This document shows, piece by piece, positions 6,400-14,060 of a DNA stretch of 56,553 bases. The notes under the pieces are model-generated. The model made no database searches, was not told where the DNA came from, and saw only the letters and a program-made list of their open reading frames with translations. How positions within the stretch are numbered: the first letter of the stretch is position 1; each line of letters begins with the position of its first letter. The position numbers were made by a program, and so were the translations under genes. Location: the IMG/VR virus record IMGVR_UViG_3300047472_000137, positions 1 through 56,553 of that record; one strand, 5' to 3'. Source of the DNA: a virus.

Positions 6400-6423
6400 G
6401 CCCCCTCCCGCGAAGGAGGGGGC
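6400..6423 (-). terminator. Terminator after the methyltransferase gene
   Basis: GCCCCCTCC and GGAGGGGGC form a 9-bp stem with a short CGCGAA loop, 23 bases beyond the stop of the methyltransferase. On the minus strand it is followed by TTCTCTGTGT, a weak T-rich tail. A second hairpin, GGAGCCGG/CCGGCTCC, follows at 6361-6385. Confidence 0.65.
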
Positions 6424-6445: not shown

Positions 6446-7570
6446 TCACTCGATCTCTGCTCTCCAAGCTCCTCGACTGATCGTGCAGACACCCTCTGGA
6501 CTGATCTCGACCCGGGCATTAGTCAGCGGAAGTGACCCCTCTATGTTGAGTCGGAGCCGAATACGCTCCAATTCGTCGTAAAGGCGCCTAGGTCCGCCTT
6601 GATGCACAGTGGGGAAATCCTTCCAAACACCTTCAGCACGAGCCCAGGAACCGTCAGGGTGGATCATCCACGCCTTTCGAGTCCGATCATCATCGTTCGA
6701 GAAGTAATGTTGGATTCCCGGCACGGTCAATTCGAGCATTGACCACACGTCATAGGACTCAGGGACATTCAAGACGGGGAATCGGCCCATGGAGACCTCT
6801 TCCCCCTCCAAATTGGACACTTCCTTGAATTCAGGGCCCATATTGGAGTAGTTAGCACCCTGGCGAGTCTTCATGAAGCTCGCTCGGTCCGCTTCTACGC
6901 GGCCAATGGCGCTTCCATCCTCTTGTTTATCCGCTGTGACGATAAGCCAGGTGCCGGCCAGGGTCGTAACGAGCCTTCCACCAGGGCGAAGGGCCTTCAG
7001 CCACGGTGCCGGAACGCCCCTCGTGGACACCGTGGCAATGATGCGATCGAACGTGCCAGGAAGAGGCCCCGTGATGTCGCAGACGGCCATCTGAGGGCGA
7101 AGGCCGATGTCATGCAGTCGGTTGGCCGCTGCTGTCACAAGGTAGGGATCGACGTCCAGGCTCGTCACATGCTCAGCGCCAAGGCGTCGACAGGCCAAGG
7201 CAGTTCCGTAGCCCGTTCCTGTCGTCACAAGGATGTCTGAGTCATCGGCAATCATCGCGTGGCGGTACATCTGGACCACCAGAGAAGGCAGCGTTGAGGA
7301 TGACGTGGGCAGGCCGTCAGCCTGCTTCTCCTCCGCCTGGTCCGCATGCTCCTCTCCCACACGGGTTACAAGGGTGCGGTTGGAGTACGCCGCAGCCATC
7401 CACGCATCCGGGTCCTGGGGGCCGTCCTGAAGCGCCCAACGCCCCCCACTGGCCTTCCACCAGTGAGGGACGAAGAGATGCCGTGGAGTGGTCGCCAGGG
7501 GCTCACGCCAGCGTGAGAAAGGGTGAGCGACTTCTTCAGCGAGTCGAGCAGCGTGAGTTGTCCACTCCAT
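6446..7570 (-). CDS. PIMT-like protein methyltransferase (FxLD-system type)
   Basis: A 374-residue SAM-dependent methyltransferase of the protein-L-isoaspartate methyltransferase fold. The SAM-binding motif I is DILVTTGTGYGTALACRRLG, followed by the acidic strand VTSLDVDPYLV, and FDRIIATVSTRGVPAPWLKAL. The N-terminal segment TTPRHLFVPHWW and the long C-terminal extension fit the family annotated as 'methyltransferase, FxLD system' in Streptomyces peptide-natural-product loci. ATG 7570 follows a GAGAAGG ribosome site that overlaps the stop of the radical SAM gene, so the two are coupled. The target is probably a peptide or protein side chain; no FxLD-type precursor was found nearby. Confidence 0.75.
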   Translation of the reverse strand: MEWTTHAARLAEEVAHPFSRWREPLATTPRHLFVPHWWKASGGRWALQDGPQDPDAWMAAAYSNRTLVTRVGEEHADQAEEKQADGLPTSSSTLPSLVVQMYRHAMIADDSDILVTTGTGYGTALACRRLGAEHVTSLDVDPYLVTAAANRLHDIGLRPQMAVCDITGPLPGTFDRIIATVSTRGVPAPWLKALRPGGRLVTTLAGTWLIVTADKQEDGSAIGRVEADRASFMKTRQGANYSNMGPEFKEVSNLEGEEVSMGRFPVLNVPESYDVWSMLELTVPGIQHYFSNDDDRTRKAWMIHPDGSWARAEGVWKDFPTVHQGGPRRLYDELERIRLRLNIEGSLPLTNARVEISPEGVCTISRGAWRAEIE

Positions 7571-7580
7571 GAGCGCCTTC

Positions 7581-8537
7581 TCAGTTGTAGGCGGGGTTAC
7601 AGGCTTCAGTCTCCGCAGGAGAGCAGTCCGAACCATCTTGGTCCGGGTTGCACGCGGTCACTGTGCCGAAGCCGTCGGCCCCTGGGGACGGTTGGCAGGA
7701 ATCTTCGTTGGGGGTGCAGGAGTCCGGGACGCAGGCGCCCTTGTTCCGCCGTGGGATTACCGCCGAGTTGGCCGCCCATGCTGAGCCGCTCATGATCTCG
7801 GTGAGTGGCTGCTCCTTCACGTTGCCGGCGACCAGCCAGCGGGACATGACGCAAGGCGTCACCTCGCCGTCAGGGTGAACGGCTGCCCGGTTCACTCCGC
7901 AGTTGCCACACAGCTCCTTGGGGTCGTGGAACTCGACGCCTGTGGGGTCGCCCTTGCCGATGGCCCTGACGCGGTCGTACCGGATTTCCCCAGTGACACC
8001 AAGGGCACGCAGTTCTGCCCGAGCCTCCTCGACCCTCTGTCCCTCAAGGACGTGCACCAGCGACACCCGAAGCGGGATGTTGCGCCGCTGTGCTTCGATG
8101 ATGTTGCCCTTGGTCCGCTTGTAGGACCCGCGGCCTTCTGTGAGTGCCTCGTGCTCCGCCTCGTTGTCGCTGTAGTAGCTCGTCGCGAGACTCACGCCGG
8201 GGAGGGAGAAGACCCTCCACATTGCTGGACGGACGTGCACGAGGTTGGAGAAGACCTCAACACGGATGGTCCGAGCGAGAGTCCGCTCTACGAGCTGCGG
8301 AAGGTAGGGGTGAAGTGTCGCCTCCCCTCCGATGTACTGGATCAGCTTCACACCCGCAGCGGCGGCCTGGTCGATCACCGCATACCAGTCGTCCAGCGTC
8401 ATCGTGCCGTGGCTGCCCTGCGGCCCCGACTTGGCGTAGCAGAAGGTTCCACACTGGTTCTGGCACTTCCCAGTGATCTCCAGCGCCAGGGTTTTGATGG
8501 TGAGGGGGGTGGTCGGAGCGTCAAGGATGGCTGTCAC
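7581..8537 (-). CDS. Radical SAM/SPASM-type enzyme
   Basis: A 318-residue protein starting at GTG 8537 after GAGAGGA. The iron-sulphur motif is CQNQCGTFCYA near residue 20, a C-x3-C-x3-C spacing also known from Streptomyces peptide-modifying radical SAM enzymes, and it is followed by GGEATLHP. The C-terminal part has LCGNCGVN, EVTPC and a Cys-rich tail (CVPDSC, EDSC, TACNP, SDCSP, EACNP), as expected of SPASM auxiliary clusters. It lies upstream of and coupled to the methyltransferase. Radical chemistry on a peptide or protein is likely; the substrate is unknown. The last 50 residues could also be a tethered substrate-like segment, which is speculation. Confidence 0.8.
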   Translation of the reverse strand: MTAILDAPTTPLTIKTLALEITGKCQNQCGTFCYAKSGPQGSHGTMTLDDWYAVIDQAAAAGVKLIQYIGGEATLHPYLPQLVERTLARTIRVEVFSNLVHVRPAMWRVFSLPGVSLATSYYSDNEAEHEALTEGRGSYKRTKGNIIEAQRRNIPLRVSLVHVLEGQRVEEARAELRALGVTGEIRYDRVRAIGKGDPTGVEFHDPKELCGNCGVNRAAVHPDGEVTPCVMSRWLVAGNVKEQPLTEIMSGSAWAANSAVIPRRNKGACVPDSCTPNEDSCQPSPGADGFGTVTACNPDQDGSDCSPAETEACNPAYN

Positions 8538-8566
8538 GCGTTTTCCTCTCGCAGTTGGGGCAGGAG

Positions 8567-8657
8567 TTCCCTCGCCCGGACTCGAACCGGGGTCACGGAT
8601 GCGAGGGGAGCCCCCCACGGAGTTACATCCGGCTCTTCCTGACTGAGTTACGAGGGA
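8567..8657 (-). tRNA. Atypical tRNA-like gene with an enlarged anticodon loop
   Basis: The acceptor stem is TCCCTCG with CGAGGGA, the D-arm ACTC...GAGC, and the T-arm CCCGG-TTCGAGT-CCGGG, all normal. The middle can fold as a 6-bp stem CGGATG/CATCCG closing a 24-base loop that itself contains GGGG/CCCC. A standard loop has 7 bases, so this would be a tRNA with about 17 extra bases. An alternative fold gives a Tyr-like GTA anticodon in a 6-base loop with a long variable arm. The isotype is therefore undecided. It lies directly before the radical SAM gene on the same strand. Confidence 0.55.
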
Positions 8658-8797
8658 TCGCACGTCTCTGCCAGGCGGATTCACCAACAGAGACGGCGGG
8701 TCTCAATAGGGGGTAGCCAGGGCCACCCCGAGGACGAAGCCAATGGAGCCCGATAACGCGATGATCAGAATGGGCCCGGCTAAGGCCATCACCCGCC

Positions 8798-9076
8798 TCA
8801 TCGAGGCACCCTCGCAACTCGTGCAGGCTCAAGGGGAGGCGGGACAGTCTCCTTCGGCTCCCAAATCACGAAGTCAGACCACGTCCGCTGATAGCGGGTG
8901 TGTCTCGTCTCCCGAGTGTGTTCGTGCATCCACTCTTCAACGGCGGCAGTGCAGTCCTGGGGGCCCGATTCGGCCCCACATTCGGCATCCTCTCCATAGA
9001 CGCACCGTGCGGCGTACTCCAGCTCCCCGAGAGGGTCTTGACGCACCTTGTAGCTCACCAGTCGGATGACAGGCAT
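8798..9076 (-). CDS. DUF7848-like small protein
   Basis: A 92-residue protein with three Cys residues in the first half (ARCVYGEDAECGAESGPQDC) followed by helical WMHEHTRETRHTRYQRTW. The Cys pattern, the 'MHEHTRETGH' motif and the length match small proteins common beside Xre/DUF397 genes in Streptomyces chromosomes (DUF7848 type). A zinc-finger fold is likely. It overlaps the preceding gene by 22 bases. Role unknown. Confidence 0.65.
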   Translation of the reverse strand: MPVIRLVSYKVRQDPLGELEYAARCVYGEDAECGAESGPQDCTAAVEEWMHEHTRETRHTRYQRTWSDFVIWEPKETVPPPLEPARVARVPR

Positions 9077-9327
9077 TTGCCACTGCTCCTCGCGTTAGCC
9101 ACGGCAAGCTTGTGCTTCAGGGCCTCTTCCGGTGAACACATCCGGATTTGGCTCTCGGGCACGTCGCGTTCCTTCCCGCCTCCGATGGGGCGGAGTTGGT
9201 AGTAACCACCTACGTGACCCATGACTTCGCCGATGGTGCCGGCGGCATCCTTCACCGTCTCGTGGAGCATGGGGACGTGTGGTTGGTCGGTAGTTGGCTC
9301 AGCCTCTACCTGGGCTGATTCAGACAT
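9055..9327 (-). CDS. Small hypothetical protein of the cargo operon
   Basis: A 90-residue protein, MSESAQVEAEPTTDQPHV, with an acidic unstructured N terminus and a body GEVMGHVGGYYQLRPIGGGKERDVP that looks like a small beta barrel. It is the first gene of the leftward four-gene block. GTG 9342 is an alternative start. It could be a precursor or partner of the radical SAM and methyltransferase enzymes, but it lacks an obvious core peptide. Confidence 0.6.
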   Translation of the reverse strand: MSESAQVEAEPTTDQPHVPMLHETVKDAAGTIGEVMGHVGGYYQLRPIGGGKERDVPESQIRMCSPEEALKHKLAVANARSSGKCLSSDW

Positions 9328-9410
9328 GGGGGGACCTCTCACGAAGCCGAAGGGTTTTCACCCTGCGTGCTTCAAGGGTCGCCCTCAGTCCCCTACGATC
9401 TCCACAGGTT

Positions 9411-9438
9411 CATGTCCCAACTTCAAAGATGGAACATG
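9411..9438. promoter_or_regulatory. Candidate Xre operator
   Basis: Inverted repeat CATGTCCCA (9411-9419) and TGGAACATG (9430-9438), 8 of 9 positions paired, in the space between the divergent cargo operon and the Xre gene, 11 bases before GTG 9449. Position suggests autoregulation of both directions. Confidence 0.55.
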
Positions 9439-9448
9439 GGGGTTGATC

Positions 9449-10294
9449 GTGGGAGCACGACCGAAGGACTTGACGCCGGACCTCTCTGCCCGACACATGT
9501 TCGGGGCGAAGTTGCGGGAGTACCGGGGCCGGAATGACATGAGCCTTGACGGACTGTCAGGGATTGTGAACGTGAGCAAGACCCATCTGTCTCGGATCGA
9601 AAATGCCGAGTACATGATCCCGCCGGGCCTCCCTGAGAAGCTTGACGCTGCCTTCGGGACAGAGGCGATCTTCACGGACCTCTACAGCCTGGCGAAGAAG
9701 GAGATCCACCCAGACAAATTCCGGCGCCGGATGAATCTTGAGGCCAGAGCCACCGTCATCAAGGAGTACAGCCCTCAGGTTGTGCCGGGCCTCCTCCAGG
9801 TCGAGTCATACGCCCGAGCCCAGTTCGCAATGTTCGATCCGCGGGCAAGCGCTGAGGTCGTTGACGAGCTGGTGACGGGCCGTATCACCCGTCAGGGCAT
9901 GCTCTTAGGAGACCCCCGACCCGACTACGCCGCCATCCTGGATGAGGCTGTACTCCGCCGGGCCTTCGGCGGGCCCTCGGTCATGAGGGAGCAGCTCCAG
10001 CGACTCCTAGAGCTGACGCTCACTCCGTCCACGTTCATCCAGGTACTTCCGTTCGAGCACGGGGGGCATGCCCTGGTTGGAGGGTCGCTGTCTCTGTGGT
10101 CCCTCGATGATGGGACCCAAGTAGCCTATGAAGAGGCGATTTCCACTGGGACAGTGCTAGAGGAAATCTCTGAGGTCCAGGCCCGTGTTCGGGCCTACGA
10201 TCTGCTCAGCGCTTCAGCGCTGTCCCCCGTCAAGTCGGCGGATCTCATCCGGTCCGTAGTGGAGGCAATACCCCATGAGCACCACCACCCCTGA
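9449..10294 (+). CDS. Xre-family regulator (HTH plus DUF5753-type domain)
   Basis: A 281-residue protein, the normal length for this Streptomyces family. The N-terminal helix-turn-helix (about residues 20-75) contains LREYRGRNDMSLDGLSGIVN and KTHLSRIENAE. The C-terminal DUF5753-type domain contains VPGLLQVESYARAQF and the typical ILDEAVLRR and FIQVLPF motifs. GTG 9449 follows a GGGGG ribosome site; the longer upstream frame is not needed. It overlaps the DUF397 gene by 20 bases. Such pairs act as developmental or antibiotic regulators and have been proposed to behave as toxin-antitoxin-like modules. Here it probably controls the divergent radical SAM operon. Confidence 0.85.
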   Translation: MGARPKDLTPDLSARHMFGAKLREYRGRNDMSLDGLSGIVNVSKTHLSRIENAEYMIPPGLPEKLDAAFGTEAIFTDLYSLAKKEIHPDKFRRRMNLEARATVIKEYSPQVVPGLLQVESYARAQFAMFDPRASAEVVDELVTGRITRQGMLLGDPRPDYAAILDEAVLRRAFGGPSVMREQLQRLLELTLTPSTFIQVLPFEHGGHALVGGSLSLWSLDDGTQVAYEEAISTGTVLEEISEVQARVRAYDLLSASALSPVKSADLIRSVVEAIPHEHHHP

Positions 10295-10490
10295 CCTCTC
10301 CGGTGAGTGGGTCGCATCTTCGTTCAGCGGTAACGGTGGAGGCAACTGCCTTGAGTGGATGCCTTCGGCCGTCGCTCCCTCAGGTCTCGTTCCTGTCCGT
10401 GACAGCAAGACCCCTGAGGGACCCACTCTTATCCTCTCTGCCTCGCAGTGGAGCACCTTCGTGGACTTCGCCAAGGGGCACACTGCCTGA
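10275..10490 (+). CDS. DUF397 protein
   Basis: A 71-residue protein with the family landmarks: SGEWVASSFSGNGGGNCLEW, VAPSGLVPVRDSKTPEGP and ILSASQWSTFVDFAKG. DUF397 proteins are the standard partners of the Xre/DUF5753 regulator encoded just upstream. The two genes overlap and must be co-translated. Confidence 0.9.
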   Translation: MSTTTPDLSGEWVASSFSGNGGGNCLEWMPSAVAPSGLVPVRDSKTPEGPTLILSASQWSTFVDFAKGHTA

Positions 10491-12455: not shown

Positions 12456-12545
12456 AACCGCAGCTCAGCCCCTTCCTAGGGGTTAGAGCGTTTGGAGGTC
12501 CTTCTCCCAGGAGAACGACCCCCGAACGCGTCATTGCGTGCTTCA

Positions 12546-14060
12546 ATGGACACCATACACAGGAAGCAACTTAAGGGGGAGAAGTTGGCGACAGAAAGGC
12601 CGTGGTGTGCCTACTGCCGGATCTCGGATGCGGACCTTGCAGAGCTTCGCTACCTCGTAGCCGCAGGGACGCTCACACCAGAGCAGGCCAAAGAGAGGGA
12701 GAGGAAGGGAGTCCTCAAGCAGCGGGAGGACTTGGCCGCCCTCGCGGCCAGCCTCGGCGTCTCCGTCGTCTGGTACGAGGACAACAACCTCAGCGCCTTC
12801 AAGCGCAAGGTGAAGCGCAAGGACTTCGAGCGGATGCTCACGGACCTTGCCGCCCCAGGTCTGCGCGGTGGGATCCTCGCCATCGACATTGACCGAATCA
12901 CCCGTCAGAACCGGGACCTTGAGAGGGTCATCGACATCTATGAGGGCACCAAGCTGAGTCTTGGGTTCCACACCCTCTCTGGGCAGAACTTTGACCTCTC
13001 CACCCCTGACGGACGGTTCTCAGCCCGCATCATGGTCAGCGTGGCCAACAAATCGTCTGAGGACATGTCCCGCCGACTCAAGCGGGAGATGTTGAGGAAG
13101 GCCCGAGAGGGAGAGATCTCGGGCGGGCACACGCCCTTCGGTTGGGAGGAGGACCGCAAGACGCGGCGGCCCAAGGAAGCCGACTTCGTCGCCGACCAGA
13201 CTGAGGCCGGAATCAAAGGTGACTCGGTCGCCACGATCACCAACCGCTTCAAGGAAGCGGGCTTCGTCGGCCGAACCGGCAAGCCGTTCGACCGCACGGC
13301 GGTACGTCGCATCATGCTCAACCCTCGGAACGCGGGAATCAGGGTCTACCAGGGGGAGCCGCTCAAAGACGACGAGGGCAACTACATCCTCGGCGAGTGG
13401 GACGTGTTGGTTGAGATCGAGAAGTGGGAAGCCCTCCGAGCCAAGTGGGCAACCAACCAGGGCGCTGGGAAGGCCAGGGAGTACCGCATCAGCACACTCC
13501 TTTCCGGCATCCTCCGCTGTGGTGCCTGCGGTACTCGCATGGTTGCGGCTAACAGCGCATCCAAGTACCCCAAGTACAGGTGTGCCGATGGTGCCGGCGG
13601 CTGCGGCAACGTGTCGATCATCCGAAACAAGACTGACGAGGTGATCCGCAAACTCGTGTCTGAGTACCTGGAGCGGGCGGCGGCAACCCTCAGCCTTGCC
13701 CAGCCTGAGGAGGAGCCTTGGGCCAAGGCTCCCGAGCTGCAAGAGGCCGAGAGTGAACTGAAGAAGATCAAGGCCATGTACAAGGAGGGGACGATCAAGG
13801 CCACCACGTACGCGATCCTCCTGGACGACCTTGAGGCCAAGGTGGACACCCTCCGGGGCGAACGCGCCTTGCATCAGGCAACGCGGCCCGACTTGAAGCC
13901 GTCCCTAGACGCGCTCAAGGACGGGTGGGGGAAGCTGTCCGTCGAGAGGCAGCGGGACACGATCCGTTCGGTTCTCCGGTCCGTCCTCGTGAACCCCACT
14001 ACCCGGAGAGGGGCAGGAATCGACCTCTCCCGACTGACCCCCGTCTTCCAGGACGCGTGA
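12546..14060 (+). CDS. Large serine integrase
   Basis: A 504-residue recombinase. Residues about 15-175 are the catalytic domain, with the nucleophile Ser in CAYCRISDADL and the arginines in AIDIDRITRQNRDL and SEDMSRRLKREMLRKA. The recombinase domain (GGHTPFGWEEDRKTRRP, AVRRIMLNPRNAG) follows, then a zinc ribbon (RCGACGTRM...YRCADGAGGCGN) and a coiled-coil (ELQEAESELKKIKAM). This is the standard order for phage integrases such as phiC31, which act on attP/attB without supercoiling. ATG 12546 gives the canonical length; TTG 12534 and TTG 12492 are in frame. One copy of the 18-bp repeat lies 10 bases into the gene. attP was not identified. Confidence 0.93.
   Translation: MDTIHRKQLKGEKLATERPWCAYCRISDADLAELRYLVAAGTLTPEQAKERERKGVLKQREDLAALAASLGVSVVWYEDNNLSAFKRKVKRKDFERMLTDLAAPGLRGGILAIDIDRITRQNRDLERVIDIYEGTKLSLGFHTLSGQNFDLSTPDGRFSARIMVSVANKSSEDMSRRLKREMLRKAREGEISGGHTPFGWEEDRKTRRPKEADFVADQTEAGIKGDSVATITNRFKEAGFVGRTGKPFDRTAVRRIMLNPRNAGIRVYQGEPLKDDEGNYILGEWDVLVEIEKWEALRAKWATNQGAGKAREYRISTLLSGILRCGACGTRMVAANSASKYPKYRCADGAGGCGNVSIIRNKTDEVIRKLVSEYLERAAATLSLAQPEEEPWAKAPELQEAESELKKIKAMYKEGTIKATTYAILLDDLEAKVDTLRGERALHQATRPDLKPSLDALKDGWGKLSVERQRDTIRSVLRSVLVNPTTRRGAGIDLSRLTPVFQDA
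12556..12573 (+). repeat. 18-bp dispersed repeat, site 5
   Basis: TACACAGGAAGCAACTTA, two changes from the consensus, within codons 4-10 of the integrase. A bound repressor here would block integrase transcription. Confidence 0.7.

Follow-up and report, generated by a model that had tools for sequence, protein, structure and literature searches.

The locus analysed here raises the question of which molecule is modified by a phage-encoded set of peptide-modifying enzymes. The window, i.e. the whole stretch of DNA that was analysed, is a virus record of 56,553 bases (IMGVR_UViG_3300047472_000137) related to Streptomyces phage Success, to which its structural half shows 79.9% identity over 61% of the query. 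It encodes a radical S-adenosylmethionine (SAM)/SPASM enzyme, a PIMT-like methyltransferase of the PAMT family, a DUF7848 protein and a small protein of 90 residues (p90) on the minus strand, opposite a divergent Xre/DUF397 pair on the plus strand. The original prediction, made from the sequence, had named all these genes, which are indeed present, and had described a peptide-modification-like block, a description that our analysis supports. It had also stated that the modified target was not evident; the likely target is a tail of the radical SAM enzyme that is rich in Cys and that the same prediction had listed as a candidate. We propose, as the likely explanation of the block, a phage cassette for a ribosomally synthesized and post-translationally modified peptide (RiPP), in which the precursor would be fused to its own radical SAM maturase and tailored by the PAMT.

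The radical SAM enzyme ends in a cysteine-rich tail

Relatives of the block were gathered from host genomes, by protein searches and through slot-neighbour genes, because no match was obtained when known phages were searched at the nucleotide level with the block or when viral contigs were scanned with the back-translated radical SAM enzyme. In each of the 105 loci whose tail could be read, the enzyme ends in a tail rich in Cys-x-Pro (CxP), and 490 of the 505 tail cysteines across the family stand in this context. The tails contain 2-12 Cys each and, in the PAMT-linked group, span 20-94 residues. The tail of the window enzyme is kept nearly invariant in six out of six close relatives, while the helix that precedes it diverges. 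An identical unit of 21 residues, CPPDDSNDCSPASTEACDPAY, occurs twice in the tail of locus L135, and three related units of about 21 residues each are found in those of L109, L111 and L117. The sole exception is L002, in which a TGA stands directly before the CxP tail.

The CxP tail, with core-like repeats in some cases, would provide at all loci but L002 the gene-encoded precursor with a conserved core by which a RiPP is recognised, and we infer from these sequences that it may serve as the precursor. The search for a separate precursor in tail-less relatives yielded no case, since all relatives are tailed, L002 having its stop before the tail.

In L002, a homologue from a Mycobacterium prophage, the TGA at position 2862 is followed by an in-frame CxP tail, GPNCNPQCTPQTICAPTHCVPVRGHCGPNEP. 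This stop is either a nonsense mutation or a site of read-through.

The tail motif follows the partner gene

The gene downstream of the radical SAM gene encodes, in this family, a PAMT, an APH-like kinase or neither. In the first sample, Asp-Gly/Ser was present in the tail of 37/37 enzymes with an adjacent PAMT compared to 2/8 without. A second set of genomes was gathered after this rule had been fixed, and in these other genomes the dipeptide was present in 25/27 tails with PAMT compared to 6/29 without; the two exceptions (L140 and L142) combine a tail of the kinase type with a PAMT 916 nt away. The kinase-linked tails exhibit a CxPG..CxP[RK] motif in 17 out of 19 cases, compared to 1/86 for the other tails. 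The kinase of L063 is 36% identical to Success gp1.

When all letters other than the CxP positions were shuffled, 36.1 ± 3.6 PAMT-linked tails were expected to hold Asp-Gly/Ser, compared to the 62/62 observed; for mutually dissimilar tails, 19.2 were expected in shuffles and 32/32 observed. These shuffles show a dipeptide that is retained while the remaining tail letters change. In lanthipeptide precursors linked to PIMT homologues, Gly is the usual residue after the conserved Asp (PMC13001092).

A third, highly conserved type of tail, CTPPQFLPMCGPCGPCVPSVGHCDP, is found without PAMT or kinase at L125, L128, L133, L134, L136, L144, L146, L149 and L150.

The proposed pathway and its alternatives

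In the pathway that we propose, the radical SAM/SPASM domain would modify its own C-terminal CxP tail, acting either in cis or across subunits. Formation of a thioether or of another radical crosslink involving the cysteines is the most likely reaction. The PAMT would methylate the tail Asp that precedes Gly/Ser (Asp301-Gly302 in the window), which would lead to an aspartimide or isoaspartate, and the tail would be cleaved and released as a peptide product.

Several observations weigh against this pathway. A leader or protease site was not identified for the tail, and the block holds no transporter gene. A tree built without the tails consists of one PAMT-linked clade and one kinase-linked clade (L140 and L142 being entered as kinase-linked, and L100, cut by the contig end, as PAMT-linked). 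Since each partner type forms one clade, the partner association represents one evolutionary change and not many independent ones; in the same way, shared ancestry stays in the shuffle test. The structure model, in which the window tail has a predicted local distance difference test score of 26-34 and is predicted to be disordered, was built on six sequences only. Finally, every tail has at least two Cys, usually three or more, which is compatible with a metal-ligand role.

The tail could accordingly be structural, its Cys binding an auxiliary iron-sulfur cluster or zinc and replacing the missing SPASM half, the substrate then being some host protein or a peptide from another locus. We consider this unlikely: the number of Cys and their spacing vary widely, whole units are duplicated and the motif tracks the tailoring partner, although the second SPASM cysteine group is absent from the enzyme and tails of the PAMT type start at a nearly constant 35-37 residues after a conserved PC. 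In type II pamtides, cysteines that bind zinc are of importance (PMC13001092); in the present family, however, LCGxC...PC already supplies three ligands, the tail is predicted to be disordered, and L002 has no tail, provided that its stop acts as a stop.

The missing protease or leader site, together with the ancestry of PIMTs as repair enzymes, would also fit a tail that is modified but never released, the self-modified enzyme being the active species or the PAMT merely repairing isoaspartate in the tail. This is very unlikely, as the repeat units with their spacers resemble multi-core precursors and the PAMT belongs to the RiPP type with a C-terminal extension (PMC10787088).

The methyltransferase and the radical SAM enzyme

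The window methyltransferase scores 251.8 bits against TIGR04188, the family of the ATP-grasp system, over 29-382, nearly the full model, which is below the cutoff of 380; TIGR04188 is its nearest family only. The original prediction had assigned it to the FxLD-system type, which is wrong, as TIGR04364 gave 52.1 bits compared to a cutoff of 320, and the FxLD lanthipeptide system was rejected. The PCMT match (5.3e-9) covers residues 117-247 of 396 and the TIGR04188 alignment reaches 382, so that the protein has the PCMT domain and the C-terminal extension of more than 100 residues that define a PAMT. On these matches, the enzyme is a predicted graspetide-type PAMT rather than an FxLD enzyme. 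Its start is probably the ATG at 7570 and not the end of the open reading frame at 7636.

The radical SAM enzyme matches the Pfam domains Radical_SAM (2.2e-11) and SPASM (4.2e-8). Its nearest solved structure, by sequence and by fold, is SkfB (6efn), and SkfB and StsB are the best two family matches for its radical SAM domain. In support of the original prediction, it resembles RiPP maturases (SkfB and others) and not tRNA or cofactor enzymes. The enzyme has the domains and fold of a sactipeptide radical SAM/SPASM maturase, with half of the SPASM cysteines, and its scores are far under the cutoffs of the sactipeptide-maturase families (48 vs 300 bits); the cassette is not assigned as a sactipeptide.

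The CX3CX3C motif (window 8537-8435) is one residue longer than usual; it is present in 33/62 PAMT-linked enzymes and in 0 kinase-linked ones. A viperin-type defence function is considered unlikely, the pVip profile, for which PADLOC gives no cutoff, yielding a partial match of 31 bits and weak superfamily similarity at most.

The block and its regulator pair

Table 1 Features of the window and further tRNA-like elements, with the basis of each assignment
Feature	Sequence	Position	Strand	Basis
Terminator-like hairpin 3' of the methyltransferase gene	window	6401-6419	−	consensus scan: 3 found vs 2.1 expected by chance
PIMT-like O-methyltransferase (PAMT family)	window	6446-7570 (open reading frame up to 7636)	−	TIGR04188, PCMT, start from homologues
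Radical SAM/SPASM enzyme, 318 residues, GTG start, CX3CX3C cluster motif	window	7581-8537	−	Pfam, SkfB-like fold
Proposed core/substrate: radical SAM C-terminal CxP tail, residues 269-318, CVPDSCTPNEDSCQPSPGADGFGTVTACNPDQDGSDCSPAETEACNPAYN	window	7584-7733	−	
tRNA-like RNA	window	8566-8657	−	ARAGORN tRNA-Tyr call; covariation
DUF7848 protein	window	8798-9076	−	Pfam PF25232 3.9e-10
90-residue protein (p90)	window	9055-9327	−	homologues beside Xre/DUF397
Inverted repeat CATGTCCCAAC-ttcaaa-GATGGAACATG, probable Xre operator	window	9411-9438	none	
Xre/HTH_31-DUF5753 regulator	window	9449-10294	+	Pfam DUF5753 1.4e-49
DUF397 protein	window	10275-10490	+	Pfam DUF397 3.1e-17
Serine recombinase	window	12492-14060		
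tRNA-like RNA	L169	3932-4028		
tRNA-like RNA	L173	428-525		

The helix-turn-helix (HTH)-DUF5753 protein followed by the DUF397 protein constitutes an XRE/DUF397 pair by its Pfam matches. The window Xre is 73% identical to its homologue in L089 and 68% to that in L069 (range across these loci 68-74%). The palindrome that had been described between the divergent gene sets is present and ends 10 bp before the Xre start. Taken alone it is weak, since 48/500 shuffles equal it; it has nevertheless been conserved at L089 and L069, whose Xre proteins are the most similar to that of the window, and is probably the Xre operator. The pair may act as the private switch of the block that had been proposed, controlling the cassette divergently.

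For p90 no Pfam match was obtained; its relatives are encoded next to Xre/DUF397, both in Streptomyces and in the phages Success (gp5), L089 and L163. Since p90 and the DUF7848 protein share the operon with the enzymes, and p90 has a recurring Gly-rich motif, either could be taken for the substrate. This is extremely unlikely, and p90 was rejected: it is poor in Cys and rarely linked, being near 9/62 PAMT-linked loci (DUF7848 near 3/62), and related small proteins accompany other cargo or none in L089 and L163.

Relatives in Streptomyces and the phage slot

The radical SAM and methyltransferase genes adjoin in Streptomyces chromosomes and plasmids. Streptomyces contig L069 has the order DUF397, Xre, p90, DUF7848, tRNA-like RNA, radical SAM and methyltransferase, with one small open frame preceding the radical SAM gene, and L005 shares this gene order, in agreement with the expectation of comparable sets on Streptomyces chromosomes. 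A relative at E ≤ 1e-50 was found in 58/396 Streptomycetaceae genomes. In a phylum-wide sample, 4/397 genomes matched, all four already among the Streptomyces genomes, and close members (E ≤ 1e-35) were nearly confined to Streptomyces relatives.

In related phages, identified through the neighbouring HTH gene, the slot holds other cassettes. That of Success (L010 266-2380, gp1-gp3) contains a radical SAM enzyme, a precursor-like peptide of 38 residues and a kinase, annotated as oxidoreductase, hypothetical protein and kinase only. The peptide family is also found beside similar enzymes on Streptomyces plasmids (L175-L178), ending in GCGxDNP[YF] in Success and 3/4 plasmid copies and in CNAGDDNPH in the fourth, and an APH-like kinase follows the radical SAM gene and peptide in Success, L175 and L177. 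Phage contigs L090 (4272-5419) and L093 (12795-13971) carry a graspetide precursor PF14404 (3.9e-17 and 2.9e-18, respectively) and an ATP-grasp ligase beside Xre/DUF397, and L089 has p90 and DUF7848 homologues, with neither enzyme within the stretch available. The Austintatiousvirus genomes (L169-L172) contain an Xre-type regulator, two small genes, a tRNA-like RNA, a peptide of about 47 residues rich in Gly, Ser and Asp, and a PAMT-type methyltransferase, likely a pamtide cassette. DUF397 is annotated in the Austintatiousvirus phage Ididsumtinwong and a serine integrase in two of L169-L172. Two of the phage groups have laboratory strains as hosts, namely Streptomyces venezuelae ATCC 10712 (the Austintatiousvirus members being S. 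venezuelae phages) and S. lividans JI 1326. RiPP cassettes of differing chemistry are thus exchanged in one phage slot under one regulator type.

The claim that such a block had no description in a phage holds for function, as none was found in the open-access papers searched; the Austintatiousvirus Xre/PAMT cassette, the Success radical SAM cassette and PHROG 13505, which already covers the window methyltransferase, do exist. Because of the divergent Xre/DUF397 control and of a slot where relatives keep other RiPP cassettes, the cassette is probably expressed in the lysogen, which would gain a peptide signal, a toxin or a fitness trait.

In L166, a viral contig of 109 kb, an Xre cassette with tRNA-like RNAs encodes a JmjC/cupin-like protein (2087-2971, judged by eye).

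A tRNA-like RNA inside the block

The original prediction had overlooked an RNA inside the block (Table 1), which has acceptor, D and T arms and a variable hairpin in place of the anticodon arm. The window element gave no Rfam match at E ≤ 1 and does not show the score of at least 29 bits with a decodable anticodon arm by which RF00005 is assigned, while the Success element matches tRNA with 51.9 bits. An ordinary tRNA-Tyr or an attachment site was rejected, as a search of four genomes gave no host tRNA with a long match; the element is tRNA-like.

In 14 aligned elements, variable arm excluded, 95.1% of cells pair compared to 87.3% in shuffles, both partners vary in eight pairs (1/500 shuffles), and structures slid along the alignment pair at no more than 58%. 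This covariation shows a working tRNA-like fold but not by itself a separate family, because true tRNAs share these arms.

The window, Success, Austintatiousvirus, L069 (3814-3961) and L074 carry such elements upstream of their biosynthetic genes, whereas L089 (two), L094, L096, L163 and L166 (more than one) have them next to cassettes of the Xre type. L090 and L093 yielded none, and some elements stand away from such cassettes, namely those of L160 and L161 and those within the L165/L168 tRNA cluster; the association is common but not strict. We tentatively suggest that actinophages and some Streptomyces encode this RNA as a standing part of Xre/DUF397 RiPP cassettes with radical SAM-PAMT, radical SAM-kinase or pamtide cargo, directly upstream, where it could act in processing or regulation, or serve as an acceptor during the modification itself, and not as a decoder. 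It would be an undescribed tRNA-like RNA tied to phage RiPP cassettes.

Comparison with known systems

The XRE/DUF397 pairs of Streptomyces are of a type identical to that of the window and have been reported as antibiotic regulators, 14 DUF397 proteins showing no toxicity (PMC10364602); the window pair, in contrast, is phage-encoded and stands opposite a biosynthetic block. Graspetide groups co-occur with DUF397/DUF5753 too (PMC13097080). Pamtides and graspetides with PIMT share the methyltransferase family with the window cassette, which is however devoid of ATP-grasp ligase and of a separate precursor. SkfB and StsB act on separate precursors, whereas the window enzyme consists of a half-SPASM and a tail.

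The closest known systems include the radical SAM-PAMT two-gene clusters, likewise an adjacent radical SAM enzyme and a C-terminally extended PIMT-like methyltransferase, of which 249 had no findable precursor (Lee et al. 2023, PMC10787088). The window family and these clusters are very probably identical sets. A fused tail would have been missed by searches of neighbouring genes, because it is part of the maturase. Compared to that description, the present analysis proposes the tail as the precursor and adds a member from a phage, a sister group linked to kinases, and tails with repeat units. If true, the missing substrate of the 249 clusters would be supplied, a testable answer to a published question. 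No report of a fused radical SAM precursor was found in the main text of open-access papers. Borosins likewise hold enzyme and core in one polypeptide, with a C-terminal core and an autocatalytic logic (PMC7878506). Their enzyme is an N-methyltransferase and that of the window a radical SAM enzyme, with a different chemistry and a modification that is predicted; the window cassette would then represent a radical SAM counterpart to borosins.

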